In this document: piece after piece, positions 1,113 through 21,765 of the stretch
Position numbering within the stretch: the first letter of the stretch is position 1
Layout: each line of letters begins with the position of its first letter
Origin: a virus
Virus record (IMG/VR): IMGVR_UViG_3300030110_003628
Span: 1-27,441 of that record
Length of the DNA: 27,441 nucleotides
Strand: one strand, 5' to 3'
Notes under the pieces: generated by a model
Told to the model about the DNA's origin: nothing
Database searches by the model: none
What the model saw: the letters and a program-made list of their open reading frames with translations, nothing else
Translations under genes and position numbers: made by a program

Positions 1113-1122
1113 TTTTTAAAGT

Positions 1123-4100
1123 TTAATCAAAATCAAAGTCATCAAAGTCAAAGTCATCATCATCAAAGTCAAAGTCATCAAAGTCAAAGCCTATTTTATC
1201 AAATTCATCTTTTTTCTTTCTAGTATCTATACCAAGATCCCACGTGTTCCAACCTAAAGCTAAAGCTATTCTTTGCCAAACAGCGTTGTCACTGTCTAAC
1301 GAAGCTCTTATGTTTCTTATTTTGTTATAAGCTCTGTTTACAGGAACATTAAATATACCTTCTAATGTGCTAGTTGCTATTTCATAAGTTGGGTTATCAA
1401 TATCTACGTAACCCATTTCTTCTATTTCGTCTCTATTAAACTTATAGCTCTGTGTAGCTGAATATACTTTTCTAAGTTTAATACCTACAGGTGGTGCTAA
1501 ATTAGCCATTTCTAACAACACATAAGCATAATCTGCTCTTCCTCCTGGTTTAGCAGACTCTTTCATTGCTCTTAACAACATGTTTTTAAGCGTAGATACT
1601 ACAGCTCCTCCAACACCCATACCACGTAAAAACGAATCTGACATGCCGTTTAATATTCTTTCACCTTTTTTGTTTATATATTCTTCTTCATCGTCATCTT
1701 CAAACATCATAGCAAACATAGCTGTTTGTAAAGTGTAGAATATTAAGTTCTGTACCATACCGTAATATATTATTCTAGATATGTTAGCTTTCATACTACC
1801 TCTACCGTTAACTAAATCTTGCAAAGCTCTTTTAGTTAATCTAGCATACTGCATAGGTGTATTTTGAAAAGCAAGTATTAATCTACCTAAAACAGAAGCT
1901 TGTTCTTGTGAAATCATATCAGCTCTTGCAGACTGTTGAGTTCTTTCTGCAACTTCTTGAAAGTCTGTAAAAGCTTTTTTCTGAGCATCTTCTTTGCTCA
2001 TACCTTCTTTAACATATTTATTTATTCTGTTTCTGTAAAAACTTGCACCACCTATTGCTATTGCAAAGCTATCAGCTATTTGTGTAGGTAAGAAACCTTT
2101 TTGTAATAACCATTGTAAAGCAGCTTTAGTTTTGTTTCTGCTTTTACTTAAATGTGTAATCAACTCAGAAGCGTTTAAATCAGACCTTAAACCTGATCTA
2201 CGTTGTTTTAAGAAGTTTGAGTTAAATAATTCAGAAAAATCAGTCCAAAACTGCTCTTGATTTGCAAAAGCTTTTGAAGCCGCAAATATATTATTATCTT
2301 CCCAGTTTATAAAGTTAACAAAAGACAACTGCTGCAATAAAGCAGATCTCATGTTAACAAACATAGTTGCTGCTACAGAACCGTTTAACCAGTTCATAAA
2401 ATCATTAACAAGTTTATTATCACCAAAAGCTCTATTAGTACCGTTTTCCATACGCCATATAATATCATCAAGAGCGTTTCTTACGCCTTTACCATATATA
2501 GCTTCTATTTTATTCATATTAGCACCTACAAGCTTTCTACCGTTAAACTTACCAAAAATAATTTCTCTATTATTTTTAAAGTCTTGTAAAAACTCAGCTC
2601 TTTTTACTCTACTAGACTTTTGAAATAAATCAAACTTTATACCTTCAAGCTCCCACTCTTTATTTGGCTCTAAATAACCTGCTTTTTCTCTTGATATTTT
2701 ACCTACAGACAAAGCAAAAGCTAATAACCGCTCATCTTTTTCTACTATATCAACTAAAGCTAATCTATCAGTTTCTGATAATCCAGGTATTTCAAAACCA
2801 GCTTTACTCCACAAATAAACTCTTACAGCATCTTCTATAGTAAAATCACCATCAATAACTTTTTCTCTTAAACGCTTGCGCATGCCTGTTGTTTTCTTCA
2901 AAAGCTCACCGTATTCGTTCATCATTAACTGCCTAGCGTTGTTTATTTTTGCTATAGCGTTAGCATAAGGCCTTAACAACGTGTCTTGAAAAAACTTTAA
3001 AGCAGCGTCACCTTTAGCGCCTTTAGGTAAAAAATTATATATTAAACCTAAAAAATCTTCAGCTGATGGTGGTATAAAAAATCTAAATTTACCTTTGTCT
3101 TTACCACGTCTTCTACCTTTTATTTCTGAAAATCTTTTTTCTGCACCAACACCTTCTCTTTCTTCTAATATTTCGTTAAATTTATCGCTAAACTTTTCAC
3201 TTCTAGATATTTTAGCTTGCTGTACTTTTGACTTTACATCTAACTGATCTAGTACATTTGCAACTTCTGTTACGTTTTGTAAAGCATCGTCAGCAAAATA
3301 TATATCATTATAACCTTCTTCAACTTTTTTAACTATCCAAAGTGCTTTTGCTTCAGCTGTTGAATTAGCTAAACCTGTAATATTATCGTAAGGTATGTTT
3401 AAACCTACGCTTTTTAAAAAGTCATATATAGCTCTTTGTGCTTCTGGCGGCCTTGCTGTTAACACATACATATCTTCAGTGCCATACTTATTTGCTAGCT
3501 TAACAGCTTTATCAAATAGTGGCCCTACTTTACCGTCTACAACTTCATTGAACTCAGAAAAATCAAACTTATAACCTTGATTCAATAAACTAACATAATC
3601 TCTAGCATATTCTTCAGCGTTTAAAAAACCTTTTCTACCATCAGGCGAAGTATATCTAACTCTAGAGTTTGTAGTAGCTAAAGTATCGTCAAAATCTAGT
3701 ATACTTATACCTTTAAGATTATCATTAAACTTCATACTTCTAGCCATTTTAGCAGCTTCATTGTATGATAACGACTGTTTTACCTTTCTTTGTTCGTTAG
3801 AAACAAACTCTTCGCCAATAATTTCACCATTTAAAGCAAAATCTTTGTTTATTACTTTTATAGGTGAAACAGCAGAATCAAAAGCAGTTATATCGTTAAA
3901 AGATCTACCTATAGATGTTTTTAAAATAGTTTCACGATTATTAATATCTGCATCTTCATCATAATCTCTTTGCATTTTAGATTTTAATCCAGATCTTTCT
4001 AGCAAGTCATCAAAATCAGTTTCATTTTTTGTTTTACCACGAATTATACTAACAACGTAATCATTAAAAACCTTATCAATTAAACTATCCCATTTAGCCT

Positions 4101-7100
4101 CTGGCTCGTTTTGTAATATACTTGTTATTTTGCTTATTACATGGTGGTGTGGTTTTTGATGCTCGTATGTGGTTTGATTAGTAGGCACTAATAAATTATT
4201 GTTGTTATCTACTACGTTTGTAGCTATGCTAAATATTTTAGCTGCTTTTCTTGAAGGTGACTCCATGCTAACACCTAAATTAAATAAAAATTGAGCAAAC
4301 ATCATTTGATCATTTTTATTGTTTTTAGAGCCATATTTTTTCCAATTAAATATAAAAAGATACTTTGTTAGTTCTCTAGCAACATCGGCTTGTTCATTTA
4401 AATCAGAAGTTACAGAATCCCAGTTGCCACCAATATAACTTTCTACTATATTAGAAGATAAGTCATCTACAAGTTTTATATTGTACTTTTCTTTTATTTT
4501 TTTAGGTGTTAAGTTTAATTCAAAATACCCATCATCAACAGAGCTAATTAACTTATCAAAATCAGAAGCGTTTTCAAATATAGAAGCTCTAAAACCTCTA
4601 GGATTACTGTTGTCTACGGTAGGTCTTATTCTACCGTTACCTTTCATGTTTTTACTAGCTATTCTTGAGCTTTTACTATGATGTTTACGCAACATCTGCA
4701 TGTAAAGTATAGCTCTTGCTTTGTTTTCTTCAGCAGTTCCACCAGGCACTAAAGTTCCAGCTTCAGCTCTTGATTTTATATCTTTAGCAATACGAGCAAC
4801 ATTTATTCTACCTCTTGTAACGTGATATGGTGTAAAAGCCTCTGGCCTTGTAAGACTACCAACACCGTCACCATACAAACCTAAAAGCTCAAACACAGCA
4901 GAAGTCTCGTTGTAAGAGTGTAACTCTTCTTTGGTAAATTGAGCTAAATCAGGTAAAAAACCTCTATCAGTAGCATAGTTATTAACCATAAAACCGTATT
5001 TAGTTATTATACCTGTTTTAGCTGTTAAGTTTGTAATTAACGCTTGTTGTATAGCTGGTTTTACTATTTTACCGTCAAAGTTTTGCGTAAATAATAGTTT
5101 TAACTCTCGTCTAAGAAGTTTAACGTTACCTTCTACAGAAGCTGGAAAATCTATTATTAAACCTAGTATTTGTGGCTTTAACTTTTCTATCATAGTTAAA
5201 GTATACTCTGCTGCAGACTGATCTTTTACCATCATATCTTTAAATACCTTTGACTCTGAAAAAGTATTTATACCGTCATCTAAACCTACAGCTGTTTTGT
5301 CGTTTAAGCTACCAAATCTTGCTAAAGACTGTTTCATGCCTTGTGCAGAAACTTTTCTTGCTATTTCAAAAACTATTGCATTGGCAAAAGCAGACGTATT
5401 TCTATCACTTCTGTCAGCAATACCTTCTACTATACCTATTTTTTCAAGAAAGTCATTAACATCAACAACTGGAAACCTAAAAAACAAGTTTACGTTGTTT
5501 ACTTTTTTTCCTCTGTTATAAAAGTTTTTTAACAACAAAGGCCTAACTTTGTTTGATTTTATAGGTTTTTCTTTAGTACCTACAAAAGCTCTTGGTAAAC
5601 CGGCAGCAATATGAATCTCTGGATTACCACGAACTCTTCTCTGTATAGTTTGTAACTCGTTAGTACCTTTTTTACTGTCAATACGTAAATTAGCCATGAA
5701 ACTAGCTTTTTTACCTTTAGGTATTAAACCAGCGTCTTTATTTTTTTTGTTTAATCTCCAGTCTAGTTTATCACGATCAACACCATAATAATCAGCTATT
5801 ATTTGAAAAGCATAAGGTTGCATTTGCGCAAAGTCAAGATCACTTATATCTGGTAAAGTACCATCAAGATCTGCAAAACCAAGATCTGTTAATTCTTGTA
5901 ACCACTGCTCTCTTGTTTGATTGTCCATAGGACCATCTAAAATCATTTTAACACCTTTATCAAAGTGCTCTTGTATTCTGTCTTGAAGCTCTGAACTACC
6001 TAATCTATTAGAAACGTTTATATCAGGTCTTATAGTTTCGCTATCATTATACCTTGCGTCCATACCTTCGTCAGTATCAGCAAGCTCTCTAGCCTCTCTA
6101 GTATCAATACTAACAGTACCTTCAACTTGACCAACTGTTTCAGCTTTTAATATTTGCCCATATCTAAGTGGTAGTATACCGTTTAAGTACTGACCAAACT
6201 CGTTTACTCTAGCATCGTAAGTTCTAGCTAAATTTGATAGTTGCTCGTAGTAACCAGATAAAAACTGTTCTCTTGTAACTCTTTTACCTGCTTCTAATCC
6301 CATTATATTTGGGTTTTTAGCAGCAAAATCTGCCAACTTCATTGCTAAAGCTAAATTATTTTCAACAAGTTCGTTTTGTAGCTCAGGTGAAGCTACAACT
6401 TTACCGTTTTCAACTATACCTTGTTCTAATATCTTTTTTCTTATTTCAGCGTTACGCTCAACTATTTTTTTAGTATTTGCAGATAACTCTAAATCTTCTA
6501 CTAGTTTATCATTATTGTACACTGATCTACTTAAACCTTCATCACCTTCAATAGTCTCTATTACTTGACCAACTTGTTGTTCGTCTTCTATTGTTTTTCT
6601 TTGCTCAGCGGTTAGTTTAAACTTATTCTTTTTAGCCATTACAGACTGAAGACCTTCTTCTTTTATTTTTCTTAAACCTTTACTAAATCTACCTCTTTTA
6701 GCTTCTTTAGCGTAGTCTTCAATAAAGTTTTGCAAGTCTTGTATATCTTTTATTTTAAAGTTAATACCAAACTTTCTAGCAACTCTTCTAACTATATCTA
6801 CAAACTTAGATAAAAAGTTTTTACTAAGCTTTATTCTGTTTTGTAATAAAGCTTCTGACATTATTGTTAATAGTTCATCTGCATTTTTTGTAGTTAAATT
6901 ACCACCAGAGTAACTACCAAATTTATTTATTACATATCTATTTAATCCTGGATTTTTATTTAACTCTTCTCTTAATAAATATGATAACCTAACCATTAAC
7001 TCAGGATCTTTTATTATAGTTTCTCTTAGCATACCGTGTAAAACTTCATGTTGTACAACAGCAAAGTTTCCAGACTCTAAAGCTATTTCAGGGTTAACTA

Positions 7101-10100
7101 TTACTGTGTGTTTTTTAGTTACATCATCGTATACTATAAATCCAGCGCCTTTTCTTAAACTACTATCAAAATCAGGTATTGTAGCAACTATTTGAGATCT
7201 TAACTTTTCAACTTTTTGTTTAGCATCATCGTTTAAATCACCGTTTTTATCATAGTTCTTTTTATCTGATTTTATTTCTTTTATTTCTTTAGCAATTTTT
7301 TTATTTTGAGCTAATCTTCTAGCGTTTTCTATTACTCTAAACTTTTCATGCTCTTCTTTTGTTTTTGTTTCATGATATTCAAAACCTTCAGCACGAGCAG
7401 TAACTTCACCTCTTGCTCTTAACTCTTCAAATAACTCTTCTCTTTGCTTTGTATAATCGTCATTTTCAATTTGAGTATCTACACTTGCTATTTTTTCGTT
7501 TATTTCATCTATTTGGCTTTTGCTAGCAACTTTATCTTTTGTTTTTAAAATATCATTTTTTTCTTTTACTAGCTTTTGTTTTTCTCTTAATAAATCAAGC
7601 GTTTTAAAAGTAACTTTGTCAGGTGCAACTCTTACAACATCTAACAATTCAAGTTGTAAGTTTAAAGCTTTTTGATGACCTTCTATTGATTTTTGTAATA
7701 TATTTATTTCTTGTTTATCTTTACCAGACTTTCTTTTTTTATTATTTAATATAGCTAGTTTATCTTCAAAAGCTTTCATTTCATCACTAATTTCTTTAGC
7801 TGTATCGTAAGCGCCTAAATAAGCAGCACCATAAACAGACTCATATGAAGATTTATAGTTTTGTTTAGCTTGATAACCACCTAAAGCGCCTGATAAAAAC
7901 AAAGTACCAAGTAAAAGTTCTGATTGAGTAGAAGCTTTTAAAACTTCAGGGTGATAACTAGTTATATAAGCAGATTTTATAACATCGTTGAGCAAAATAT
8001 CAAGCTCTTCTTCAGTTATTTCTTTCATTATATTAGATAAAAACGTCTTACCAGCGTCACCAAAAGCTTGTTTTTGAGCTACTTTACCAATTTTTTGAGT
8101 ACTTCTTATTTTTTTTATACTGTTTACAAATTCTTTAGTAATTCCTTGTCCAGATTTACCTGCTATATAGTAATAGTCTGGCATTATAGCTTGACTTAAA
8201 CCAGTAGCAAATGACATCCAATGTGCCGCTGCCATAGCCTCTTCAGAAGTTAAACCTTCATTTTTCATATAAGCAACGTTTTCAAGATATAACATCCTAT
8301 ATGTTAAGTCTACTTGCTTTAAATTAATAGCAGCTCTTTCTGTAAATCTAAACCTTTTATTTAAGCTATCAAAAAATCTTCTATTAAACTGTATCTTTGA
8401 ACCGGTATCATATATACCAAACAAAGCGCTACCCTTTTTAAAATTACCACCTCTGTTCCAATGTTTTAGTTGTTTTTTAGAAAAACCTTTTAACTCTTTA
8501 GCTTTTATAGCTATATCTCTTGCTTTTACAAACTTACCAGTACCTACTATTAAACTTGCAGTGTATGGTATTACACCTGTAAGAAACCTTGGAACATTTA
8601 TTTCATTTGCGTTTTTACTTTTAAAAAATCCTTCAAACTCTAAAACATCTTCATCCGCAAATCTTGAAGCAAAAGGTATAATTTTTTTCTTGTTATAACT
8701 ATCAATATAGGTTGTAAGAAAATCTGCTGGTGTTATAGTTCTACCTGTAACTACATCCGTATACTCCGCACCTAAATAGCTAGCTAAATAACTTCCACCT
8801 GCCACGATAGCTTGCAAAGGAAGACTAACTATATCTACAGCAAACTGAGCCGTAGGTTCAATAAATTTATCTAACAAAAGACCAATAGTACCATCGTAAA
8901 CATCAACTAAACTTTCACGCTCACCAGCAAGTTTTATAATTAAATTACGTGGACCTTCAGAAGCCTTCGTGCTAACCATTAGAGTACCATCTTCAGCGTA
9001 CTTATATATTACACCATGAGTAGGGTTAAACATGTTTTCCGCTTGATTATAATTAAGGTCTGCAAAAAGTGTAGAAACGTTTTCTGTATACTTTGATTTT
9101 CTATCGTTTAATAAATCGTTTTTATCTTTATAATCTTTTAAAGTTTGATTTAATCTTAAACGCTCTTCTTCAATGCTTTGTCCATCTAAAACCCATTGAT
9201 TATAAGCTTCTTGTTCTTCTTTGTTTTTAAAATCAGGTTGCCATATTTGTTTACCTTCGTAACCAACATAGTAACCTGTTTGTCTTATTTTTTGCCATCT
9301 ATCAACTAAATCTTTTTGTCCTGTATCAAACTCTGCTATTTCGTTTTCAATATCTACTTTATCATCAGCCATTTTATCATCAGCCGCTTCTATTAACGAA
9401 CTTTCAAGTAGCAAATCTTTACCTTTAGTATCAAGTAAATGTTCTTTAGCTCTTAATAATATTCTAAATCTAAAATCATCTTCAAACTTTTTACCAGTTT
9501 CAAGAGCCATATAATCTTCTTCTGTCATTACAGATAACAAAGAAACTCTTAAATCTTCTTTACTATCACCATAATCTTCGCCAGAGCTGTCTAATATTTG
9601 ATCTGTTCTCTTTATTAACTGTTCGTACTGTAACTTACGTTTTTTATATTCTTTTTCATCTCTATATAGATCAGGCTTGTCTTCAAACTGTTCTATATAT
9701 TTTTTACTATCAAGATAAATTTTAGAAGCGTCAAAAGCTTGTTCTTTTTCAAACTTGTCTAGTGCTTCTTTTTTATCAAGTGATTTTTGAGTTGGGCCTA
9801 GTTGACTTTCTTCTTCAACAACTTGCTCTTCTTTTATAATCTCTTCTTCTTCTACCTTAGGAGATAAAATCTGATTAATACCTTTATTTACATCATCAAC
9901 TAACTTTTTTTGAACGCTAGGTTTTTCAAGCTCTTCATCTTCAGCTATAATGTTTTCAAGATCATCTTCTGTTAACTCTACGTTTTCTTTTACAACAGGT
10001 GTAGAGCCTTGATTTATTATAGGTTCTGTTCTGTCTTGAACTTCAGGTTGCGGTTGTTGTGGTGTAAACATATCAACCTCTTGTTGCTCTGTTTCTTTTA

Positions 10101-10968
10101 CATCATCAGATGGCTTAACATCAGTTATAACATTACCTTCAACTTGCTCTTCAGATACTGTTCTTCTTTCAATTTCTGCAGCTTGCTCTTCCATTGTAGG
10201 TTCATCTGAAGGTATTCCTTCAATACTTTCATCTTCAATTACTTCTGGAGGTTTTGGTCTAGCGTTATTTACACTGTCAACGGTTAGTGGTTCATTTACT
10301 TTTAATAAGTTAGTGTCTAGCTGAAACTCTGGTGTATAATAGTTGTTTAACCTATTCATCCAACCTCTTGAAAACTTAGAGTTATCACCTTTTTGACTAG
10401 AAGCTATATAACTTTGTTCTCTTCTTTTACCGTAAGAATTTAAAATCTTGTCACCACCTTCTTGCTCTATAGCTTTATTAACATGAAAAATAGCATCATC
10501 TAAACTTTTAAAATCTTCTATTTCGTAACCAGCATTGTTTAAAGCACTGAGCATACTTTCGTTACCCTTACCAATATCACCGAAACTAAAATTTTGATTA
10601 ACTAAAGCGTCATATATAGAAGCAGCAACTCTTTTGTCTGATATTTCATCTAGTTTATGCTTGTCCCAATATAAAGTTTTAAAATAACTAGTAACTTTGT
10701 TTCTACTTTCTCCTTCATCAACTTCAAACTCTGCTTGAAACTGAGAATTTACTTTATCAAAACCTTCTTGAGTTGTTGGTATTTCTATATTATTAGCAGT
10801 AGCCCAAGCACCTAAAGTTATACCATAATAAGTTTTAGTGTAAGCTACACTACCACCATCTATAGCATACTGGTTACCAGTATCTTCTTGCATATCGTTT
10901 ATACCAGCTTCTATATCAGCTGTTAAACCATGAGCGTAATCAAAGTTGCTTATAGTTTCTGTACTCAT
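1123..10968 (-). CDS. Giant multi-domain ejection (internal virion) protein with lysozyme-, metallopeptidase- and HAD-like domains
   Basis: This 3281-aa protein is the largest in the window. Residues 10-195 resemble GH108 lysozymes plus their C-terminal binding domain: candidate catalytic Glu20, a GG...YGIT stretch, a YWD motif, then a helical VN-containing part. Residues 240-393 are an acidic Pro/Gln linker. Hydrophobic segments lie near 709-736, 793-813 and 1015-1033. Residues 1063-1266 look coiled-coil. An HEVLH zinc-peptidase motif spans 1307-1311, with downstream Glu candidates at 1365 and 1372. A HAD-like phosphatase domain covers about 2420-2590 (D2425-F-D2427-D-T2429, T2504 in VLTARPP, D2560-D2561). 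A helical C-terminal region has a hydrophobic stretch near 3063-3090 and ends in a Phe/Asp-only tail. It is last of three ejection-type genes, like T7 gene 16, which also has an N-terminal wall-degrading domain. Large homologues in marine phages are recalled, with unknown function. Enzymatic activities are inferred from motifs only. Confidence 0.85.
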   Translation of the reverse strand: MSTETISNFDYAHGLTADIEAGINDMQEDTGNQYAIDGGSVAYTKTYYGITLGAWATANNIEIPTTQEGFDKVNSQFQAEFEVDEGESRNKVTSYFKTLYWDKHKLDEISDKRVAASIYDALVNQNFSFGDIGKGNESMLSALNNAGYEIEDFKSLDDAIFHVNKAIEQEGGDKILNSYGKRREQSYIASSQKGDNSKFSRGWMNRLNNYYTPEFQLDTNLLKVNEPLTVDSVNNARPKPPEVIEDESIEGIPSDEPTMEEQAAEIERRTVSEEQVEGNVITDVKPSDDVKETEQQEVDMFTPQQPQPEVQDRTEPIINQGSTPVVKENVELTEDDLENIIAEDEELEKPSVQKKLVDDVNKGINQILSPKVEEEEIIKEEQVVEEESQLGPTQKSLDKKEALDKFEKEQAFDASKIYLDSKKYIEQFEDKPDLYRDEKEYKKRKLQYEQLIKRTDQILDSSGEDYGDSKEDLRVSLLSVMTEEDYMALETGKKFEDDFRFRILLRAKEHLLDTKGKDLLLESSLIEAADDKMADDKVDIENEIAEFDTGQKDLVDRWQKIRQTGYYVGYEGKQIWQPDFKNKEEQEAYNQWVLDGQSIEEERLRLNQTLKDYKDKNDLLNDRKSKYTENVSTLFADLNYNQAENMFNPTHGVIYKYAEDGTLMVSTKASEGPRNLIIKLAGERESLVDVYDGTIGLLLDKFIEPTAQFAVDIVSLPLQAIVAGGSYLASYLGAEYTDVVTGRTITPADFLTTYIDSYNKKKIIPFASRFADEDVLEFEGFFKSKNANEINVPRFLTGVIPYTASLIVGTGKFVKARDIAIKAKELKGFSKKQLKHWNRGGNFKKGSALFGIYDTGSKIQFNRRFFDSLNKRFRFTERAAINLKQVDLTYRMLYLENVAYMKNEGLTSEEAMAAAHWMSFATGLSQAIMPDYYYIAGKSGQGITKEFVNSIKKIRSTQKIGKVAQKQAFGDAGKTFLSNIMKEITEEELDILLNDVIKSAYITSYHPEVLKASTQSELLLGTLFLSGALGGYQAKQNYKSSYESVYGAAYLGAYDTAKEISDEMKAFEDKLAILNNKKRKSGKDKQEINILQKSIEGHQKALNLQLELLDVVRVAPDKVTFKTLDLLREKQKLVKEKNDILKTKDKVASKSQIDEINEKIASVDTQIENDDYTKQREELFEELRARGEVTARAEGFEYHETKTKEEHEKFRVIENARRLAQNKKIAKEIKEIKSDKKNYDKNGDLNDDAKQKVEKLRSQIVATIPDFDSSLRKGAGFIVYDDVTKKHTVIVNPEIALESGNFAVVQHEVLHGMLRETIIKDPELMVRLSYLLREELNKNPGLNRYVINKFGSYSGGNLTTKNADELLTIMSEALLQNRIKLSKNFLSKFVDIVRRVARKFGINFKIKDIQDLQNFIEDYAKEAKRGRFSKGLRKIKEEGLQSVMAKKNKFKLTAEQRKTIEDEQQVGQVIETIEGDEGLSRSVYNNDKLVEDLELSANTKKIVERNAEIRKKILEQGIVENGKVVASPELQNELVENNLALAMKLADFAAKNPNIMGLEAGKRVTREQFLSGYYEQLSNLARTYDARVNEFGQYLNGILPLRYGQILKAETVGQVEGTVSIDTREARELADTDEGMDARYNDSETIRPDINVSNRLGSSELQDRIQEHFDKGVKMILDGPMDNQTREQWLQELTDLGFADLDGTLPDISDLDFAQMQPYAFQIIADYYGVDRDKLDWRLNKKNKDAGLIPKGKKASFMANLRIDSKKGTNELQTIQRRVRGNPEIHIAAGLPRAFVGTKEKPIKSNKVRPLLLKNFYNRGKKVNNVNLFFRFPVVDVNDFLEKIGIVEGIADRSDRNTSAFANAIVFEIARKVSAQGMKQSLARFGSLNDKTAVGLDDGINTFSESKVFKDMMVKDQSAAEYTLTMIEKLKPQILGLIIDFPASVEGNVKLLRRELKLLFTQNFDGKIVKPAIQQALITNLTAKTGIITKYGFMVNNYATDRGFLPDLAQFTKEELHSYNETSAVFELLGLYGDGVGSLTRPEAFTPYHVTRGRINVARIAKDIKSRAEAGTLVPGGTAEENKARAILYMQMLRKHHSKSSRIASKNMKGNGRIRPTVDNSNPRGFRASIFENASDFDKLISSVDDGYFELNLTPKKIKEKYNIKLVDDLSSNIVESYIGGNWDSVTSDLNEQADVARELTKYLFIFNWKKYGSKNNKNDQMMFAQFLFNLGVSMESPSRKAAKIFSIATNVVDNNNNLLVPTNQTTYEHQKPHHHVISKITSILQNEPEAKWDSLIDKVFNDYVVSIIRGKTKNETDFDDLLERSGLKSKMQRDYDEDADINNRETILKTSIGRSFNDITAFDSAVSPIKVINKDFALNGEIIGEEFVSNEQRKVKQSLSYNEAAKMARSMKFNDNLKGISILDFDDTLATTNSRVRYTSPDGRKGFLNAEEYARDYVSLLNQGYKFDFSEFNEVVDGKVGPLFDKAVKLANKYGTEDMYVLTARPPEAQRAIYDFLKSVGLNIPYDNITGLANSTAEAKALWIVKKVEEGYNDIYFADDALQNVTEVANVLDQLDVKSKVQQAKISRSEKFSDKFNEILEEREGVGAEKRFSEIKGRRRGKDKGKFRFFIPPSAEDFLGLIYNFLPKGAKGDAALKFFQDTLLRPYANAIAKINNARQLMMNEYGELLKKTTGMRKRLREKVIDGDFTIEDAVRVYLWSKAGFEIPGLSETDRLALVDIVEKDERLLAFALSVGKISREKAGYLEPNKEWELEGIKFDLFQKSSRVKRAEFLQDFKNNREIIFGKFNGRKLVGANMNKIEAIYGKGVRNALDDIIWRMENGTNRAFGDNKLVNDFMNWLNGSVAATMFVNMRSALLQQLSFVNFINWEDNNIFAASKAFANQEQFWTDFSELFNSNFLKQRRSGLRSDLNASELITHLSKSRNKTKAALQWLLQKGFLPTQIADSFAIAIGGASFYRNRINKYVKEGMSKEDAQKKAFTDFQEVAERTQQSARADMISQEQASVLGRLILAFQNTPMQYARLTKRALQDLVNGRGSMKANISRIIYYGMVQNLIFYTLQTAMFAMMFEDDDEEEYINKKGERILNGMSDSFLRGMGVGGAVVSTLKNMLLRAMKESAKPGGRADYAYVLLEMANLAPPVGIKLRKVYSATQSYKFNRDEIEEMGYVDIDNPTYEIATSTLEGIFNVPVNRAYNKIRNIRASLDSDNAVWQRIALALGWNTWDLGIDTRKKKDEFDKIGFDFDDFDFDDDDFDFDDFDFD
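1126..1188 (-). repeat. Low-complexity repeat encoding a Phe/Asp-only C-terminal tail
   Basis: The last 21 codons of the giant protein use only Phe (8) and Asp (13), built from FDFD and DFDD units. At DNA level this is an imperfect tandem repeat of TCAAAG and TCATCA hexamers on the plus strand. It could change length by replication slippage without shifting the frame. The tail is extremely acidic with regularly spaced aromatics. Confidence 0.9.
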
Positions 10969-10977
10969 TTAATTTTA

Positions 10978-12471
10978 TTATCTTGTTAGTGAACTACCCA
11001 TAAAATCTACATACTGACTTGGATCTGCACCTAAGTTTAGTTGTTTATAAGAGTCTGATCTTCTTAAAAATATTTTTAAAGCTCTAATTTCAGAAGGGTT
11101 TGTTAAATCAAAAGCTCCTTTATTATCACCTATTTGTATTCCAATTTTATTATTTTTACCCGTTTTAGCTATTTGTACGTCAGAGTTTCTAAAAGAGTTT
11201 CTTAAATTATCAATTGATTTTTGAACAGCTGAACCACCAGCAACTAAATCTCTATCAACAAGCATATCTACGTATGTGTTAACTTTAGCAGCGTTAACAT
11301 TAGCTACACTACCAAAGAAGTCTCCTGACGCAGTTTTAAGGTATCTATCGTTTCCAGCCATTTTAGTTCTAAACTCATTATTATGAAGCTCAGAAGCAGC
11401 GTTACCAAAGTATTCAGCAAATTTATCAACATTATGATTATAATGTATAGGGTTTCTTAAATATTCTTTAGCTTGTTCTTCTGTCCATTGATATTCACCT
11501 TTAGCATTAAAAGCAGGTGTTTCATCTGAAGCTTTAACTATAGCTCCAGTACCATCTTTATAAAACTCTTGTGATAACTGCCCTGATGCGAAAGCATCTG
11601 CATAAGTAATATCTTGATCGTCTGGTGTTAAGTCTTTAAAAAATAAAGTTGAGTTTTGTGCTCTACTACCACTTAATTTATTCTTTGTGCCTGGTATATT
11701 TTCACTACCGTTTAAAATATTTAATATTCTTGTTTTAGACTGTTTAGGACTAAGAACTGCTGTAGCTGTTTTACCATCTTGTATTAGTCCTGTTGCAAAG
11801 TTGTTTAATGCAGTGTTACCTTCTGTATAATCGTGTTGTGGCGTTGGTATAGGTTTATACTGTTGATTAGCCGAAGAACCTAAACCTCCATAAACAGTTC
11901 CGTCTGCCATTGTAATTTGTAAAGTAGAATTATCACCTACGTAAGCTATTGTAGGTGCTTCTTTACCAGGAAAGCTTTTACCTTCTAAAGTAGCTTGTAT
12001 TATCTGCATGTGTTCTTTTTCTGTAGCAGTATGAAAATCAGATAAACCAGCAGTTCCTTGAAGATCTTTAGACATGTTAAATCTTATATTAGACAAAGCA
12101 CTTTGACCAGCGTCTAAATTTTTAATTTGACCTGTCAACTGAGCTAGTCTATTTTTAGCTTCAATATCATCTTTATTTCTAGCAAGTCTTCTTGACAAAC
12201 TACTCCACTCATCACTTATTTTACCATACTCTTGATCAATCATACCTAGTTGATAATCTGAATAATTACCTAAATTTTCTAGTTCTGGTTGTTTTTCGTT
12301 CCAAGCTTGATAATCCGCGTCGAACTTTTGAGCTGCTTCAAATAAGGGTTTTATTCCAGCACCAAAACCTTGTAAACCAGCTTGTAATGCTTTTGCGCTA
12401 CTACCAGTATCATATGTTCCTGCGTCTGCTTTTATTAATGTTGCGTCTGCTTTTCCTGTTACATTTGCCAT
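10978..12471 (-). CDS. Putative internal virion (ejection) protein, medium-sized
   Basis: The chosen start gives 497 aa beginning MANVTGKADATLIKAD. A longer in-frame start 20 codons upstream would overlap the preceding gene by 59 bases. The chosen ATG sits one base after that gene's TAA, the usual spacing here. The protein is soluble and mostly helical, rich in Ala, Gln, Asn and Asp. It has an N-terminal Gly/Ala stretch (about residues 20-45) and no signal peptide or catalytic motif. It lies between an Ala/Gln-rich small protein and the giant lysozyme-bearing protein, the position of T7 gene 15. The role as an ejection protein rests on this order and composition, not on recognised homology. 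It could instead be a tail or neck component. Confidence 0.65.
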   Translation of the reverse strand: MANVTGKADATLIKADAGTYDTGSSAKALQAGLQGFGAGIKPLFEAAQKFDADYQAWNEKQPELENLGNYSDYQLGMIDQEYGKISDEWSSLSRRLARNKDDIEAKNRLAQLTGQIKNLDAGQSALSNIRFNMSKDLQGTAGLSDFHTATEKEHMQIIQATLEGKSFPGKEAPTIAYVGDNSTLQITMADGTVYGGLGSSANQQYKPIPTPQHDYTEGNTALNNFATGLIQDGKTATAVLSPKQSKTRILNILNGSENIPGTKNKLSGSRAQNSTLFFKDLTPDDQDITYADAFASGQLSQEFYKDGTGAIVKASDETPAFNAKGEYQWTEEQAKEYLRNPIHYNHNVDKFAEYFGNAASELHNNEFRTKMAGNDRYLKTASGDFFGSVANVNAAKVNTYVDMLVDRDLVAGGSAVQKSIDNLRNSFRNSDVQIAKTGKNNKIGIQIGDNKGAFDLTNPSEIRALKIFLRRSDSYKQLNLGADPSQYVDFMGSSLTR

Positions 12472-12472
12472 A

Positions 12473-13162
12473 TTATTTGAATATATCTTTGAAATTAAAA
12501 TCTTGTGTAAATCCTTTAGTGCCCGCTGCATAACCTGTAGCTAAGCCTCCAGCTAACTGTCCAATACCACCAGCTATCATTTGTTGATTTTGCATCATAG
12601 CTTGATTAGCAGCTGACAGTCTGTTTGCATCCATGCCTAACAAAGTACTAGTTCTACTTAAATCTAATCTTTGTTGTTCGCTAGCGCCTCTACCAAATAG
12701 CTCTTGACCTTTTAGTTCTAACTGTTGTTCCATTGCAGCGCCTTTTGCCATAGCTAATTGATTAGCTTGCTCTTGTTTACCAATACCAGCTGCTATTTGA
12801 GCTGCACTTTGAGTTTGTTGGTTAGCTAAAGCTTGAGCTAAAGCACCAATACCACTACCACCAGCAGCACCTCTTAACTGACTAAGAGTATTAGCTTGCG
12901 CTTGACGTGTAGTCTCTCTTTGAAATTGAGCTGCTTGTTGATTTACAGTTAAATCTTCAAACGGGTTTTCAAACTCTGTTTGTACATTTTCAAATGGATT
13001 ACTTATTTCCATGCTTGCATAAGCTTCTTTTGATTCTGCATAAGCTTTTCTAGCTTCTTCTCTTTCTCTTTTAATTCTTTTTCTGTCCATTAAACCCACA
13101 CCTAGTTGAGCTAATCCAGAAACTGTAGAGCCTATAGCCATTGCTGACATTAATGGTATCAT
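12473..13162 (-). CDS. Putative internal virion (ejection) protein, small, Ala/Gln-rich
   Basis: This 229-aa protein has a short hydrophobic Gly/Ala/Met-rich N-terminus (about residues 1-25), then a basic helix (DRKRIKREREEARK). Two NPFE/NPFED motifs follow (about residues 55-72), then a long Ala/Gln/Gly-rich part likely to be helical and membrane-active, and another Gly-rich hydrophobic stretch near 190-212. Size, composition and position before the medium and giant ejection genes match T7 gp14 and similar small ejection proteins that form the outer part of the envelope channel. From memory, proteins with the NPFE and Gly-Gly-Ser-Gly-Ile segments recur in marine phages. It ends one base before the next start. 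A 39-base leader of almost only A and T precedes it, with no clear promoter. Confidence 0.7.
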   Translation of the reverse strand: MIPLMSAMAIGSTVSGLAQLGVGLMDRKRIKREREEARKAYAESKEAYASMEISNPFENVQTEFENPFEDLTVNQQAAQFQRETTRQAQANTLSQLRGAAGGSGIGALAQALANQQTQSAAQIAAGIGKQEQANQLAMAKGAAMEQQLELKGQELFGRGASEQQRLDLSRTSTLLGMDANRLSAANQAMMQNQQMIAGGIGQLAGGLATGYAAGTKGFTQDFNFKDIFK

Positions 13163-15057: not shown

Positions 15058-18000
15058 TTACTGATAAGGATAAAGACCAAGGAAAGTAGACGGATTAACA
15101 GTTGTAAGATCTACAGTGCTATTAGCCGTTAAAGTATTTCCGTTGTCATCTGTTATTAAACACTCAACGTTTATTATATTAACTTGTGGATTTGGACTAC
15201 TATAACTAAATGCGGTGTCAAGAACTATAGTGTTAGCAATACTTGTTGAACTAGGACAGCCTACGTTTAAACTTGGTGTTTGGCTATAAGTATTAATAAT
15301 TAAATCGTTATAATCAGGTCCTCCGGGATAGCTTGTAGTTGAAGAAGCATAATCAATATATTGTAAATTGTTGTACGGTGATATTGAACCATGACTAAAA
15401 CCTAGTTCAGCTTCGTAAGGAGCTACACCGTTGGCAGCATTAGCAAAAATAGTAAGATTACCTAAAAGAAGAACGTTAATAACGTTACCGTTTGGATCTG
15501 GAACTCCGTTTATATTAAAAGTAGTTATTACAGTAACATTACTACCACTATTAGCAACAACACCTCCAGTAAGAGGTGGGAAAAAACCTGCATTAACAAT
15601 ACTATTGCTAGTTATAGTATTACCAGCAGAATCAGTTGCAGTAGCTATAAATGTAATATCTTGAGGCCCAAAAGGTACTGGGATTATATCAACAGGTATA
15701 GTAGTATTAGGAAGTAACGAAGTACTACCGCTTGTTGGATCAAGAACGTCTGCAGGATTAGCCATTGCAGAGTGTTGGTATGTACATGTGTATGTGTATG
15801 AAGGTGAGCCACCTTGTGCAAAAGGTATAAGTAAATCAATTTCAACATCAGTCGCTGTATCAAGTGTTACTTGCAGAGAAGGAGATGCTAAGCTAAAAGT
15901 TGGCAACGAAAGCGCTTGTATAGTTTCTGTTAAAGAAGCCTCTTGTTGACCACTACCGTCTATAGCAACTACATAAAACTCGTGAGTATTGTTAGTATCA
16001 CTAGCATCATCATTAGCAGAAACTGTTATAGTGTAAGATATGCTAGGGTCGTGATCAAGACCACCTGTTATTGCGTTTGTAATTTGTTGTGGTGTTTGGC
16101 TACCTGTTGACATAAACACTCTATAATTAATAATTGGAAAAACACCTGTAGTTGAAGCAGGTGTAAAGCTATATTCTATTGTTGCTGTGTTAAGTGTGTT
16201 TGAAAAATTTGTTAAACTAATAACGCTAGGCGTTATAGTGTAAGGCGCAATATCAATTTCTAAATCTTTTATTGTACCTAAACCTTGTACTGAAAAGTTT
16301 TTTAAATCAATATCATTAGCGCTTGTACTACTACCTCTAATACTACCAAACCACTTATCTTCTTTATCTAAAAAGTTTAACACACTACCTTTTGACTTTT
16401 CTGTACTTATTTCTTCAACGTACCAACCGTTTTTATTGTATAAACTTTTGTAACCATAAAAATTATTATCTGTATAACCTGAGCCTCTTTGAACTTTACC
16501 TTGACTTCCCTCATACATTATAGCGTTAAAAGATTTTATCATTGAAGGATCTTGATTAAACACAAGATTAACATGAGACTCAACAACGTCGCCGTAAAAC
16601 TCATTAGCCCTAACTCCTTCTACATGATGTTTATATATTCTACCTCTATTAAAAGTAAAGTAATCGTTTTGTATACTACAACCGTTTTCAAGCACAAAAG
16701 ACTTAAAACTAACCCAACCTTTTACTTTTTCATCATAACTAACAGTAGTGTCGTTAGGTGTTTTTATTTTAAAATTATTACTATATCTAACAGTTAGATT
16801 ATACTCTTCTTTGTTAGCATCGTAACTACCTATTAAATAAGCTGAGTCTTTTAATTTTTCACCAAAATAATCTCTCATACCATCATTAGATATTGCTGTT
16901 AAACCATCCATTGATAATCTAAGAACAGCACTTCTTTGTTTATCAGTAAAATAAGCTCTATAACTTTCACTTGCAAAAGACTCTGGATTTTGTGATATAC
17001 CATAATCACCAACAAAAGGTATTGTTTGTCCAAGAACGTTTGTATTTGCTGTTAACTGTGGATTACCATCAGCATTAAATACAGCATCTTTATTTGCTAG
17101 TATTTTTATAACTCTATCTTCACAAAAAGCTATTAAATCTGTATTTCTGCTAAATAATTTTTGTACACTACCGTAACTTGGATTTATATCTTTAGTAATT
17201 TTATCAGCTTGTACAAATTGATTTAATTCATTAACACCACCTATAGAATTATATATACCAGAAAATATTAAACCGTTTGTTTTTCTATCTTCATTATAAA
17301 GATTTTCATCATCTAACGTAGTTGATACTACAGCTCCTTTATCTATAGTAACAGCGTTAAAAGTGTCTCTAACTCTGTTAGACTCTACGCCGTTAGCAAA
17401 AGAATAACAATTGTACCAGTCAAGAGATATTGGAGAGTCATGTATATTTGTTTTGTAACTTATAGCTACACTATTAACAAGGTTAACACCTGAATTAGTT
17501 TGAACAGTTCCAGGTGGTGTATCTACAAGATTATAATCTCCAATTATTTGTATATTAATATTTTTGTTTTCGTATTCAAATATTAAAACATCACTATCAA
17601 ACAAATCTAAAGTAGCCCAATAATTTGCAGTTAATATAAGTTTATTTTCAGAAGTTATACCTCCAAGAAAAACCGCAGCAGCACCGTTGTTTAAATCACT
17701 AGTAGTATTATAAGACGGTAAACTAACTGTAGAAAATATTTTTAAAGCATCTTGAAAGTTATCAACGTTTAGGTTTACAGGATATTCTTGACTAGCTTCA
17801 TAATATAAATCTAAGTCTATATTTTCTTTTGGCTCTGTTTCAAATATACTAGGATTTTTTGGCATTTCTAGATCATCATATATAGGCTCAACTATTTCTA
17901 AGTCGTAACCTTGAGCCTTACTAATACCACGCCACATTGTTGATGGTACTGGACTAACAGGTGTTGAACCATCTTCTTCAAACTCAGCGAATGGATCTGT

Positions 18001-21000
18001 GTTTGGTGAATAACCATTCATAGCTTGTACACCATTGTTAGGTGCAGTTGGATCCCAAGCGATAGGTCTATCTAAATATAAAACCCAACTAGTTACATAG
18101 TTTTCTGGTCTTCTACCACCAAATATAATATTTTTCTCATGTTCGTAATCAAGCAAATATCTACGAGTAACAGATGTTATTGTATAGATAGAACCAGTAG
18201 GATCGTTTGACCATCTTATTTGTTTACCTACATCTAAACCATTTACAAAAGTTGCTTCATCAGCGTACTTAGGATTTACAGAGGCGTCACCAACATAAAA
18301 TATTGTAGAGTGAAGACCTGCGTTGCCAGGCACATTCCAACCTACTGAACCAGACTGGCTAAAATTACCAAGAGATGAATAGCCTGTAAGTTGACTATTA
18401 CTAGGTGAACCAGGAGGTTGGTTAAAAAGAGTTGGTTCTAAACCTGTAAAAGCTAGTTCTATTCTTGAAGTGTTTGTCCAGCTTGTAATACCGTTTGCTT
18501 TTTTTCTATAATTAGCGTTGTAACCAGACGAGTTAGGAGCATCACGGTTTATGTATGAATTATTTAAGTTATCTAATTGTGCAGAACCGCTAGTATCGCC
18601 AATAGGAGGGTTTGCAAAATCTAAGTGCCAATCGTTTATATACCAAACATCTTGATAAGTACCATACGCTACAGTAGTGCTTTGATCAACTCTATCACTT
18701 ATTTTTAAAGTACCTTGTTGTCTTGCAAAAGCAGTTGCTTTGTACCAATAAGAACGCAATTCGTTAACGCTATAATGATAATTATTAGGCTGATAACCAA
18801 AGTAAGAAGCAGGTACTCCGTTTTCATGATAACCTATAGCACCAGCAGCAGGATCGATTGCGTAATCATTATGATCACCTACTATAAAATTTGTTACCAC
18901 GCCATCAGAGTGATCATATATAAAGCTTGGTGCTCTGTAATATATTTTTCTTGAATCAAGTATTCTGTATTGAGTGTCAGCGTTTGTAAAAGGGTTTAAA
19001 TGTTTATTTATAATATCATCTTTTAATATTTTTACAAAAAACTTACCATCAAACTCTGGGCTATTTTCAACTTGAACTTTTTGAAGAACAATAGCTGTAC
19101 CAGATTTTATTTGATTATTTGCTGAGTCATATATAAAATTAACATCACTTTCAAAAGTAGGATCTACTGTAAAGTCTATTTGTGTGCCAGCTTGTGGATT
19201 ACCAGTTGAAGCGTCTATTGTAGCTGATATATTAGTAATCCTGTATTTTTTAGTACTTTGCTTAGTAGATGTATTTTTAAACTGAACTTGTATTTCTTCT
19301 TTATCTTTAGATTGTTCTAAAAGTAAATGTATATTATCTAAGCTACTATTAACAAAAGGATCATATCTTATACTGAAAGTGTCTTTTGATTGTAAAGGAA
19401 ATTTATTAGGATCTTGTGTAAAAACATCGTTGTTAGAGTTATCGTGAAACTCTAAACCTAAGTCAAGTTCGTTTCTTTTTATATAATCTGGGGCTTGGTT
19501 TTCTATAGCTAAAATTTTATATCTAGCTTTTTCAGCAACTAAATCATCAGACTCTGTACCTTTTTTTAGTATTAAAAACGTATCTATATCAACTTTATTT
19601 CTATCAGATGAAGCAAATGATAACCAAACATTATCATCTTTAGCATCGTAAAAACGATCTAAAGCTAAGTTGTAAAATTCATTTGCAGTATCTTTAATAT
19701 AAAACTTAAATGTTTTTGCAAAAGATGGTGGATCGTGTTTACACTGAACATAAAGCTTGTTGTAATCATCTGCAAATGCTTTTGATATTTTTTTTATACC
19801 ACTGTTACTACTTAATATAGGTGTTTGCCTACCGTATTCATCTAAGTATATAACTCCAACTTGATAATCTCTTATAGATTTAATTGATTTACCAGGCTCT
19901 CCTTTTTGCTCTGAACCTAGCGCTTGTAAAGAAACACTAAAGTCTGCTGATAGATTATTTAAGTCATAATTCTGTACATAGTTACCGTAAACAAGTCTGT
20001 TACCTGTTATTTCTTGAGCTAAGGCTTTTCTAGGTACTGTATCATAAACTCTTAATAATTGGTTTGAAGGTAAGGTAGCATATATAGTTTCTGATTTAAC
20101 TTCATATTTACCATTTCTTCTAGAGTTATAAATAATGCTTCGCATGTTAGGTACAGTCCAAGCGTTATGATTACCGTTGTAAGGTGAAGTAGCTATGAAA
20201 GGATCATCAGGTCTAAGAGTGTCAACTATGTAAACGTTTGCGGAATTAGACTCTTTATAAAGTATATCTATAGCAACAACATCTTCTGGTATATCTTTTG
20301 TAACAAACTCTTTTACATAAAGCTGAGCTAGTTTGTTAGACATACCTATGTTATAACCTTTTTTAGGATGATAATCAAAGTTACCTGGTAAAAAAGCTAC
20401 TTCAGAAAATGGTGAAAAAGTAGAATATTCTTTGTCTTCATAAACCCATCGATAAGCAAATCTTGGAAACTTAAATTCAAACATTTTTTCTATAGGCTCA
20501 AAAAGATCAATAACAAAAGAAGGTGCTAAATTTGTTACATTATCTAAACCAACAGGCGTTGAGTTAGAAATAGAAACTATAGAAACATCAAAATTTTCTC
20601 CTGCCGTTGTTACACTATCAACTTCAAGCTTAACCTCCCACTCTGTTAAAGGTGTTAAATGCACATTGTCTTCGTAATATCTTAAAACTAAAATATCATT
20701 AACTCTAAAATCATAATAATCACCAGAAGAATAATCTGTAAAAGTTGTTGCGTCTAAAGTAATAGTATCACCAGCTTCATTACCATCAAAATCAATATTA
20801 AGAGTACCAGATATTTTACGGTCAGGATACACAAAATCAAATCTTCTACCATCAGACATTTCTAGTACCGGTGGATATTTAGGTGATTTTTTAATAACTG
20901 TTACGTGATAATCTTCTACTGCTTTATCAGTTACAGCACCATTAACAACTAGCTTAGTTTGATTACTAACGCTCGCTGTACCTTGTATTGATCTAGGTAT

Positions 21001-21765
21001 GTTTATTTTTTTAGGTTCGTTTACATTGTCTGTAAACAATAAAAAGTCATCTAGTATATTTATACCAGTTATTATTTTAGTTGAAAAGTTTAAAACTTTA
21101 TTTTTAGAAGATGTTATATTAACGAATAGTTGAGGTTGGCCAATTAAATAGTTTGCAAAATCAACACCACCACTAGTGCTAACTTCTGTTAAGTCGCCTA
21201 CTGTTATAGTGTTGTTTGCAGGATCTTTACTCAATACGGATAAGCCAACTAAAGCAGTTTCAACAATGTTACCTGATGGCCCTCTTTCTACAAATTCTTT
21301 TACAATATCACCAACTTCAACAGCGTTAAAATTAGCTTGATTAAGCATAGTTATAACACCTGTTGTAGGGTTTATATTACTTTGATATAAATATTTACTA
21401 TGTATATCTATAAAAACTGGTGTAATTGAATTATTTTTATATTTATATATTGCGTCTTTAGTAGAAAAATATGAAAGGCCTGAAGGTAAATTAAAAAGAT
21501 CGAGTACAGGCGCTTCGTGAACAAAGTAATAAATAGAGTTATCTTTTTCGTCAGTAACTTTACCTATACAAACAGAGTCAGATGATATTGATTGACCACT
21601 AATTATTTCATTGCCTAATAAATTTTGTATAACACCAGTGTCAGAACCATCAGAAGTTGCTAACTGAACGTTCATTGCGTCTCTGTATTGACCATTAGGT
21701 ATTATTCTTTCATCAAGGTCTTTATTCATCTTACCTTGATTAAAAGTGTTATTTATTCTAGACAT
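15058..21765 (-). CDS. Very large tail protein (stabilisation/nozzle-like) with C-terminal Ig-like repeats
   Basis: This 2235-aa protein opens with an N-terminus (MNKDLDERIIPNGQYRDAMN, then QNLLGN) that I recognise from large structural proteins called tail stabilisation proteins in crAss-like phages, and from related marine phage proteins. Residues 1 to about 1830 are beta-rich with many aromatic and Asp residues, consistent with a propeller-like tail hub or nozzle. A conserved end of this part includes GWYVEEI and EDKWFGSIRG. From about 1835 to 2225 the protein changes to Thr/Ser/Asn/Pro-rich repeats resembling fibronectin-III or PKD-type Ig-like domains (ATATDSAGNTITSNS, LITDDNGNTLTANSTVDL). 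Phage Ig-like domains often bind surface carbohydrates, so this end may sit at the virion surface. It lies in a tight cluster with the 505-aa gene (3-base gap). Exact tail position is inferred. Confidence 0.75.
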   Translation of the reverse strand: MSRINNTFNQGKMNKDLDERIIPNGQYRDAMNVQLATSDGSDTGVIQNLLGNEIISGQSISSDSVCIGKVTDEKDNSIYYFVHEAPVLDLFNLPSGLSYFSTKDAIYKYKNNSITPVFIDIHSKYLYQSNINPTTGVITMLNQANFNAVEVGDIVKEFVERGPSGNIVETALVGLSVLSKDPANNTITVGDLTEVSTSGGVDFANYLIGQPQLFVNITSSKNKVLNFSTKIITGINILDDFLLFTDNVNEPKKINIPRSIQGTASVSNQTKLVVNGAVTDKAVEDYHVTVIKKSPKYPPVLEMSDGRRFDFVYPDRKISGTLNIDFDGNEAGDTITLDATTFTDYSSGDYYDFRVNDILVLRYYEDNVHLTPLTEWEVKLEVDSVTTAGENFDVSIVSISNSTPVGLDNVTNLAPSFVIDLFEPIEKMFEFKFPRFAYRWVYEDKEYSTFSPFSEVAFLPGNFDYHPKKGYNIGMSNKLAQLYVKEFVTKDIPEDVVAIDILYKESNSANVYIVDTLRPDDPFIATSPYNGNHNAWTVPNMRSIIYNSRRNGKYEVKSETIYATLPSNQLLRVYDTVPRKALAQEITGNRLVYGNYVQNYDLNNLSADFSVSLQALGSEQKGEPGKSIKSIRDYQVGVIYLDEYGRQTPILSSNSGIKKISKAFADDYNKLYVQCKHDPPSFAKTFKFYIKDTANEFYNLALDRFYDAKDDNVWLSFASSDRNKVDIDTFLILKKGTESDDLVAEKARYKILAIENQAPDYIKRNELDLGLEFHDNSNNDVFTQDPNKFPLQSKDTFSIRYDPFVNSSLDNIHLLLEQSKDKEEIQVQFKNTSTKQSTKKYRITNISATIDASTGNPQAGTQIDFTVDPTFESDVNFIYDSANNQIKSGTAIVLQKVQVENSPEFDGKFFVKILKDDIINKHLNPFTNADTQYRILDSRKIYYRAPSFIYDHSDGVVTNFIVGDHNDYAIDPAAGAIGYHENGVPASYFGYQPNNYHYSVNELRSYWYKATAFARQQGTLKISDRVDQSTTVAYGTYQDVWYINDWHLDFANPPIGDTSGSAQLDNLNNSYINRDAPNSSGYNANYRKKANGITSWTNTSRIELAFTGLEPTLFNQPPGSPSNSQLTGYSSLGNFSQSGSVGWNVPGNAGLHSTIFYVGDASVNPKYADEATFVNGLDVGKQIRWSNDPTGSIYTITSVTRRYLLDYEHEKNIIFGGRRPENYVTSWVLYLDRPIAWDPTAPNNGVQAMNGYSPNTDPFAEFEEDGSTPVSPVPSTMWRGISKAQGYDLEIVEPIYDDLEMPKNPSIFETEPKENIDLDLYYEASQEYPVNLNVDNFQDALKIFSTVSLPSYNTTSDLNNGAAAVFLGGITSENKLILTANYWATLDLFDSDVLIFEYENKNINIQIIGDYNLVDTPPGTVQTNSGVNLVNSVAISYKTNIHDSPISLDWYNCYSFANGVESNRVRDTFNAVTIDKGAVVSTTLDDENLYNEDRKTNGLIFSGIYNSIGGVNELNQFVQADKITKDINPSYGSVQKLFSRNTDLIAFCEDRVIKILANKDAVFNADGNPQLTANTNVLGQTIPFVGDYGISQNPESFASESYRAYFTDKQRSAVLRLSMDGLTAISNDGMRDYFGEKLKDSAYLIGSYDANKEEYNLTVRYSNNFKIKTPNDTTVSYDEKVKGWVSFKSFVLENGCSIQNDYFTFNRGRIYKHHVEGVRANEFYGDVVESHVNLVFNQDPSMIKSFNAIMYEGSQGKVQRGSGYTDNNFYGYKSLYNKNGWYVEEISTEKSKGSVLNFLDKEDKWFGSIRGSSTSANDIDLKNFSVQGLGTIKDLEIDIAPYTITPSVISLTNFSNTLNTATIEYSFTPASTTGVFPIINYRVFMSTGSQTPQQITNAITGGLDHDPSISYTITVSANDDASDTNNTHEFYVVAIDGSGQQEASLTETIQALSLPTFSLASPSLQVTLDTATDVEIDLLIPFAQGGSPSYTYTCTYQHSAMANPADVLDPTSGSTSLLPNTTIPVDIIPVPFGPQDITFIATATDSAGNTITSNSIVNAGFFPPLTGGVVANSGSNVTVITTFNINGVPDPNGNVINVLLLGNLTIFANAANGVAPYEAELGFSHGSISPYNNLQYIDYASSTTSYPGGPDYNDLIINTYSQTPSLNVGCPSSTSIANTIVLDTAFSYSSPNPQVNIINVECLITDDNGNTLTANSTVDLTTVNPSTFLGLYPYQ

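Follow-up and report, generated by a model that had tools for sequence, protein, structure and literature searches.

A giant late protein of a marine podovirus with lysozyme-, zinc-peptidase- and HAD-phosphatase-like domains and a constant C-terminal core

One late gene occupies more than a third of a 27,441-nucleotide stretch of viral DNA (IMG/VR record IMGVR_UViG_3300030110_003628; hereafter the window). The gene was reported by a first-pass annotation, which read its product as an ejection protein of 3281 aa in the position of T7 gp16. The open reading frame is found on the minus strand (1123..10968), runs uninterrupted from an ATG to a stop codon and fills 35.9% of the window. It has homologues on the full-length scale, L143 and L144, which are aligned with the window protein at 45% identity (window residues 411-3252) and 44% identity (403-3260) respectively. 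Because these giants come from two independent contigs and align over almost 2900 residues, the length of the window protein is not an artefact of assembly. The window makes up the greater part of a virus contig of 32,083 bp. Just past the window, this contig (G000) contains a short run of N, translated as XXXX (about 3415-3450 of L002), which is an assembly gap between the portal gene and a 264/312-aa gene.

Gene order and the ejection cassette

The phage is a marine podovirus of the Cellulophaga/Flavobacterium kind, around Pervagoviridae and Elemovirus. Its major capsid protein (24952..26481, minus strand) shows 35-45% identity to the capsid proteins of Cellulophaga phages phi38:1/phi40:1 and Calle (Pervagoviridae), Flavobacterium elemoviruses, Maribacter phage Panino and ctfjg026. 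The 2235-aa tail muzzle protein (15058..21765, minus strand) is of the crAss type: it matches Pfam crAss_MUZ_C above the cut-off (E 2e-7) and, by BLAST, phi38:1 gp97 and proteins of the elemovirus and ctfjg026. It is longer than crAss001 gp44 (1371 aa) and phi38:1 gp97 (1324 aa) and contains extra sequence. Its C-terminal part is encoded by a separate 267-aa gene in ctfjg026, and the last part of the 126-aa protein of the window resembles the end of that 267-aa protein.

The muzzle gene is followed by genes for proteins of 491, 126, 229, 517 and 3281 aa, the giant being the final gene of the structural/ejection cassette, behind gp14-like and gp15-like proteins. A matching order is found in phi38:1 (gp98, gp99 of 200 aa, gp100 of 549 aa and gp101 of 1691 aa), the elemovirus, phi19:3 and ctfjg026. 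The terminal giants of the last three are 3694, 1871 and 3859 aa long respectively, and those at this position in cultured relatives range from 1691 to 3859 aa. Several of them are labelled structural, a label that is GenBank annotation and partly assigned by similarity.

The 229-aa protein (12473..13162, minus strand) has a hydrophobic N-terminus and an Ala/Gln-rich body, and corresponds in synteny to phi38:1 gp99; its role is probably gp14-like. The 517-aa protein (10978..12531, minus strand), encoded directly upstream of the giant, takes the gp15-like position of phi38:1 gp100. It has no family match in a profile search and no relatives were found for it in the 43 records searched, so its likeness to gp100 is one of position. 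The gene order and the hydrophobic, Ala/Gln-rich sequence of the 229-aa protein thus suggest that the 229-, 517- and 3281-aa proteins, which have the sizes and order expected of it, form a gp14/gp15/gp16-like ejection cassette.

The giant gene closes the structural block, the order is shared, and several of its counterparts carry a structural label. On these grounds the giant is probably a polyvalent-type internal virion (ejection) protein that takes the place of T7 gp16 or the N4 virion RNA polymerase. The gp16-like position assigned to it by the first-pass annotation is borne out by sequence and synteny. A point against the ejection reading is that the giants of phi38:1, phi19:3 and Panino contain neither HExxH nor HAD nor a detectable core in a profile search.

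Directly downstream of the giant gene lies a gene for a 349-aa putative lipoprotein (63-1112, minus strand; lipobox LASC). Many relatives have a post-giant gene whose product has a similar N-terminus (STFYAAxNGGTS), usually followed by one for a protein of about 91 aa with one hydrophobic segment (MAKELNEDT...). These lipoprotein-like and ~91-aa genes are possible superinfection-exclusion or lysis genes.

Wall enzyme and zinc peptidase

Relatives of the giant were gathered by capsid-anchored and core-anchored searches, which yielded 99 giants including that of the window; the 89 complete ones are 2068-4134 aa long. Viral contigs searched with the full giant sequence as a single query gave no relative.

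The N-terminal domain (aa 17-124; 10597..10920, minus strand) matches the GH108 family (Pfam PF05838, E 3e-8) with 34.5 bits against a curated cut-off of 21.2, and residues 5-212 match the endolysin family PHROG 315 (E 4e-9). Two relatives, L154 and L156, have homologous N-termini, and Glu20 of the EAG motif is conserved in all three carriers. These results uphold the assignment of a lysozyme-like domain. A possible peptidoglycan-binding segment follows (aa 168-207; 10348..10467, minus strand), with a match to PF09374 (PG_binding_3) below the cut-off. The peptidoglycan-cleaving domain is exchangeable: the N-terminus carries GH108 in the window protein, L154 and L156, SLT in L153 and one more giant, and a phage lysozyme in another. 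A recognisable wall enzyme is present in only 6 of the 60 giants scanned. Farther downstream, two hydrophobic segments (aa 710-728, 8785..8841; aa 790-808, 8545-8601; both minus strand), each with a Kyte-Doolittle mean above 1.2 over 19 residues, could conceivably have a membrane role.

A zincin-like metallopeptidase region spans aa 1202-1492 (6493..7365, minus strand) and contains a conserved HEVLH motif at aa 1307-1311 (7036..7050, minus strand). In an alignment of 54 relatives with a mean identity of 18%, His1307, Glu1308, His1311 and the distal Glu1365 are invariant. Exactly one HExxH is found in 87 of the 89 complete relatives, as compared with 0.8% of shuffled sequences, and HAD motif I follows it at a rather uniform spacing (median 987 aa). 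The AF2 model of the region (pLDDT 76) shows the expected beta-hairpin leading to the HExxH helix and then a later helix that bears the Glu. The zinc-peptidase-like domain proposed by the first-pass annotation is thus supported by motif. The region of the window protein has no Pfam match above the cut-off, and Foldseek gives for the model no PDB match at E ≤ 0.001, the matches being helical noise. The giant of ctfjg026 (L006, 741-12320) has two HEFGH motifs, at aa 1615 and 2500, possibly duplicated metallopeptidases.

The peptidase is at least as likely to process the giant itself as to attack a host protein; autoprocessing by zincins has been proposed for polyvalent proteins (Iyer et al. 2017, PMC5512222). 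That the zincin is instead an effector directed against the host is a less likely alternative. The surroundings of the active site are very diverse, as an arms race would predict, but the near-universal presence of the domain and its fairly constant distance from the HAD suggest a structural or processing role.

HAD phosphatase, constant core and mosaic upstream region

The C-terminal core (aa 2405-3252; 1213..3756, minus strand) is constant, at 42-70% identity in essentially all of the ~98 relatives, while the region upstream is mosaic: except around the peptidase, coverage there drops to a handful of relatives. The core is encoded by at least 492 IMG/VR stretches, and no homologue of it was found among 50,697 annotated phages. 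Judging by the contig coordinates, those capsid-anchored records that gave no match stop short of the position of the core. The extreme C-terminus of the window protein is a low-complexity Asp/Phe tail (1123-1200; FDFDDFDFDDDDFDFDDFDFD). Five relatives match DUF5763, and some relatives have a Cys-rich C-terminal tail in the alignment.

The core begins with an HAD phosphatase-like domain (aa 2412-2600; 3169..3735, minus strand), followed by a mostly alpha-helical region (aa 2601-3252; 1213..3168, minus strand), which is identified from conservation and from AF2 secondary structure of moderate confidence. The HAD motifs DxDx[TV], S/T, K and DD are all present in this order, as DFDDT (2425-2429), LTAR (2503-2506), Lys2541 and DD (2560-2561). 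They are essentially invariant in 17 relatives, the invariant residues being Asp2425, Asp2427, Thr2429, Thr2504, Lys2541 and Asp2560-Asp2561. The universality of the HAD is partly circular in the core-anchored set, where the motif was a search pattern; the capsid-anchored set is unaffected. The domain matches PHROG 415 (E 6e-8), and with the conserved motif set this match corroborates the HAD-phosphatase-like assignment of the first-pass annotation. No Pfam match above the cut-off is obtained for the HAD of the window protein, and PDB sequence profiles give chance matches only for HAD and zincin. In the comparison of structure models that the annotation had called for, with the HAD-containing AF2 model, HADs crowd the top Foldseek ranks (3, 5, 6, 7 onward), but at E ≥ 0.5, and neither HAD nor zincin reaches a PDB match at E ≤ 0.001. 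The two folds are accordingly predicted from motifs and profiles.

In 8 of the 99 giants, a P-loop kinase of ~200 aa is inserted between HAD motifs I and II, just after motif I, which widens the spacing of these motifs from about 79 to 278 residues. The insert matches Zeta_toxin (E 1e-13) and AAA_33 (E 7e-11) in Pfam and, among others, polynucleotide kinase (PHROG 505) in PHROGs, and its carriers fall into two separate parts of the core tree. An intein was considered for this insert of roughly 200 aa and ruled out, since Pfam identifies it as a P-loop kinase. In L198 (about 9500-10100), an ART-PolyVal-like domain (E 0.005, below the cut-off) occupies the insert site instead of the kinase. The kinase and HAD of the eight relatives together form a composite like a polynucleotide kinase-phosphatase. 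The window protein lacks the kinase and is not such a composite.

T4 polynucleotide kinase (PseT) shares with the giant the PHROG 415 HAD, matched by its phosphatase half (aa 154-298), and with the eight relatives also a PHROG 505-type P-loop kinase. In PseT, however, the kinase precedes the HAD, whereas in the relatives it lies within the HAD, after motif I; PseT is a free early enzyme, whereas the HAD described here is part of a late giant gene. When the HAD profile was compared with crAss001 gp60 and T4 PseT, only motif I was aligned, so the link to polynucleotide kinase-phosphatases is one of PHROG matches.

It is possible, if somewhat unlikely, that the HAD (together with the kinase in the giants that have one) acts as a virion-delivered polynucleotide kinase-phosphatase, which would heal broken RNA or DNA ends, such as those of tRNAs cut by host anticodon nucleases, before phage gene expression. 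In its favour, the HAD and the kinase insert match PHROG 415 and PHROG 505, T4 Pnkp matches both, and both halves lie within one domain unit in eight relatives. PHROG 415 is, however, not specific for such enzymes: of 14 control genomes, 7 match it as well. The kinase, present in a minority of giants, resembles Zeta_toxin more closely than PNK. Among 21 long relatives, only 2 show an RNA ligase and none shows RtcB, and this scarcity of ligase weakens the RNA-repair reading. A search for T4-type ligase is uninformative, as it matched nothing, controls included. T4-style RNA repair is a possibility. The RNA ligase-like ORFs (PF09414) are in the L207 and L221 records (G056 and G062), and the L207 giant also bears the kinase-HAD composite.

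A slightly better candidate, yet still short of probable, is a generic phosphatase for small molecules or nucleotides, which would eliminate an alarm or defence nucleotide of the host or reshape nucleotide pools. The HAD motifs define the superfamily only, the HADs of relatives weakly match HAD-IIIC, IA and IB models (NCBIfam), and the Foldseek near-matches are a mixture of HADs, among them AphA and NagD-like proteins. PHROG 415 and the recurrent fusion with a PNK-like P-loop kinase point instead to nucleic-acid ends.

Relation to known virion giants and a possible course of ejection

The giant resembles T7 gp16 in coming third in a late ejection cassette, of which it is the largest member, and in having an N-terminal peptidoglycan-cleaving domain (GH108 here, SLT in L153). 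It is two and a half times larger than gp16, and adds a peptidase and a phosphatase; the likeness is one of position and domain, and no database match pointed to homology with gp16. The N4 virion RNA polymerase gp50, which is ejected, is about 3500 aa long and likewise has an HExxH domain and then a large helical C-terminal region (PMC12633501). In contrast, an RNA polymerase domain was not found in the giant, an HAD is not reported in N4 gp50, and only HExxH was aligned in a profile comparison of the two. CrAss001 shares the crAss-type muzzle and adjacent genes in the cargo position, but the giant has no profile match to its gp45, gp46, gp47, gp49 or gp50. The Flavobacterium elemovirus giant (QMP84709.1, 3694 aa), annotated as structural, shares the gene position and matches the same zincin profile (E 2e-9), but unlike the window giant has no HAD and no detectable core.

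These likenesses bear on whether the giant is a divergent subunit of a virion RNA polymerase, like crAss001 gp47 or the N4 enzyme, which is very improbable. CrAss001 gp47 (2341 aa, annotated as an RNA polymerase subunit) also lies behind muzzle and cargo genes and contains HExxH, and the N4 enzyme couples HExxH to a helical C-terminus in the same way. The core and HAD profiles are, however, unmatched in crAss001 gp47, gp49 and gp50, and DFDDT belongs to the full HAD motif set, not to DxDxD. No RNA polymerase family is matched in Pfam or PHROGs either, and the reading was rejected.

The giant and polyvalent proteins (PMC5512222) have in common a very large size, disparate enzymes, a recurrent zincin, lysozyme and predicted injection. 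At least two disparate activities, the mark of polyvalent proteins, are joined in this one polypeptide (GH108, HExxH...E peptidase and HAD), and domains that recur in such proteins are found: the zincin motif in 87 of 89 giants, LPD14 in one relative and ART-PolyVal, below the cut-off, in one. The LPD14 and weak ART-PolyVal matches tie the family to polyvalent proteins, and the resemblance noted by the first-pass annotation is supported by sequence and synteny. Its further statement that the cytoplasmic roles are undescribed holds in part. Iyer et al. (2017, PMC5512222) describe lysozyme and zincin in injected proteins; neither "phosphatase" nor "haloacid" appears in their paper, however, and its searched text describes neither a constant core of HAD and helical region nor a kinase within an HAD. 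New here is a family whose members share a constant core and an almost invariant protease, with interchangeable other enzymes and, in eight relatives, a kinase set within the phosphatase.

The giant, read as an ejection protein, would probably be packaged with the DNA and leave through the crAss-type tail. Its GH108 domain would open the peptidoglycan in the periplasm, and the zincin would cleave either the giant, freeing parts of it, or a host protein. The C-terminal core may carry the HAD phosphatase into the cytoplasm, where it would most likely act on nucleic-acid ends or nucleotides; the helical region of the core may serve packaging or channel formation. A more far-reaching reading, which we regard as rather doubtful, is that these proteins are widespread, previously unnamed virion giants of marine phages that combine a nucleic-acid end-processing HAD (in some with a kinase), a zinc protease that processes its own giant and interchangeable wall enzymes for particle-borne end repair before phage gene expression.

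The presence of an almost invariant protease in so large a virion protein is relevant to whether such proteins are cleaved before, during or after ejection. The constant core and exchangeable cargo mark a probable border between the delivery part and its payload, which makes the function of the ejection protein testable in cultured flavobacterial phages.
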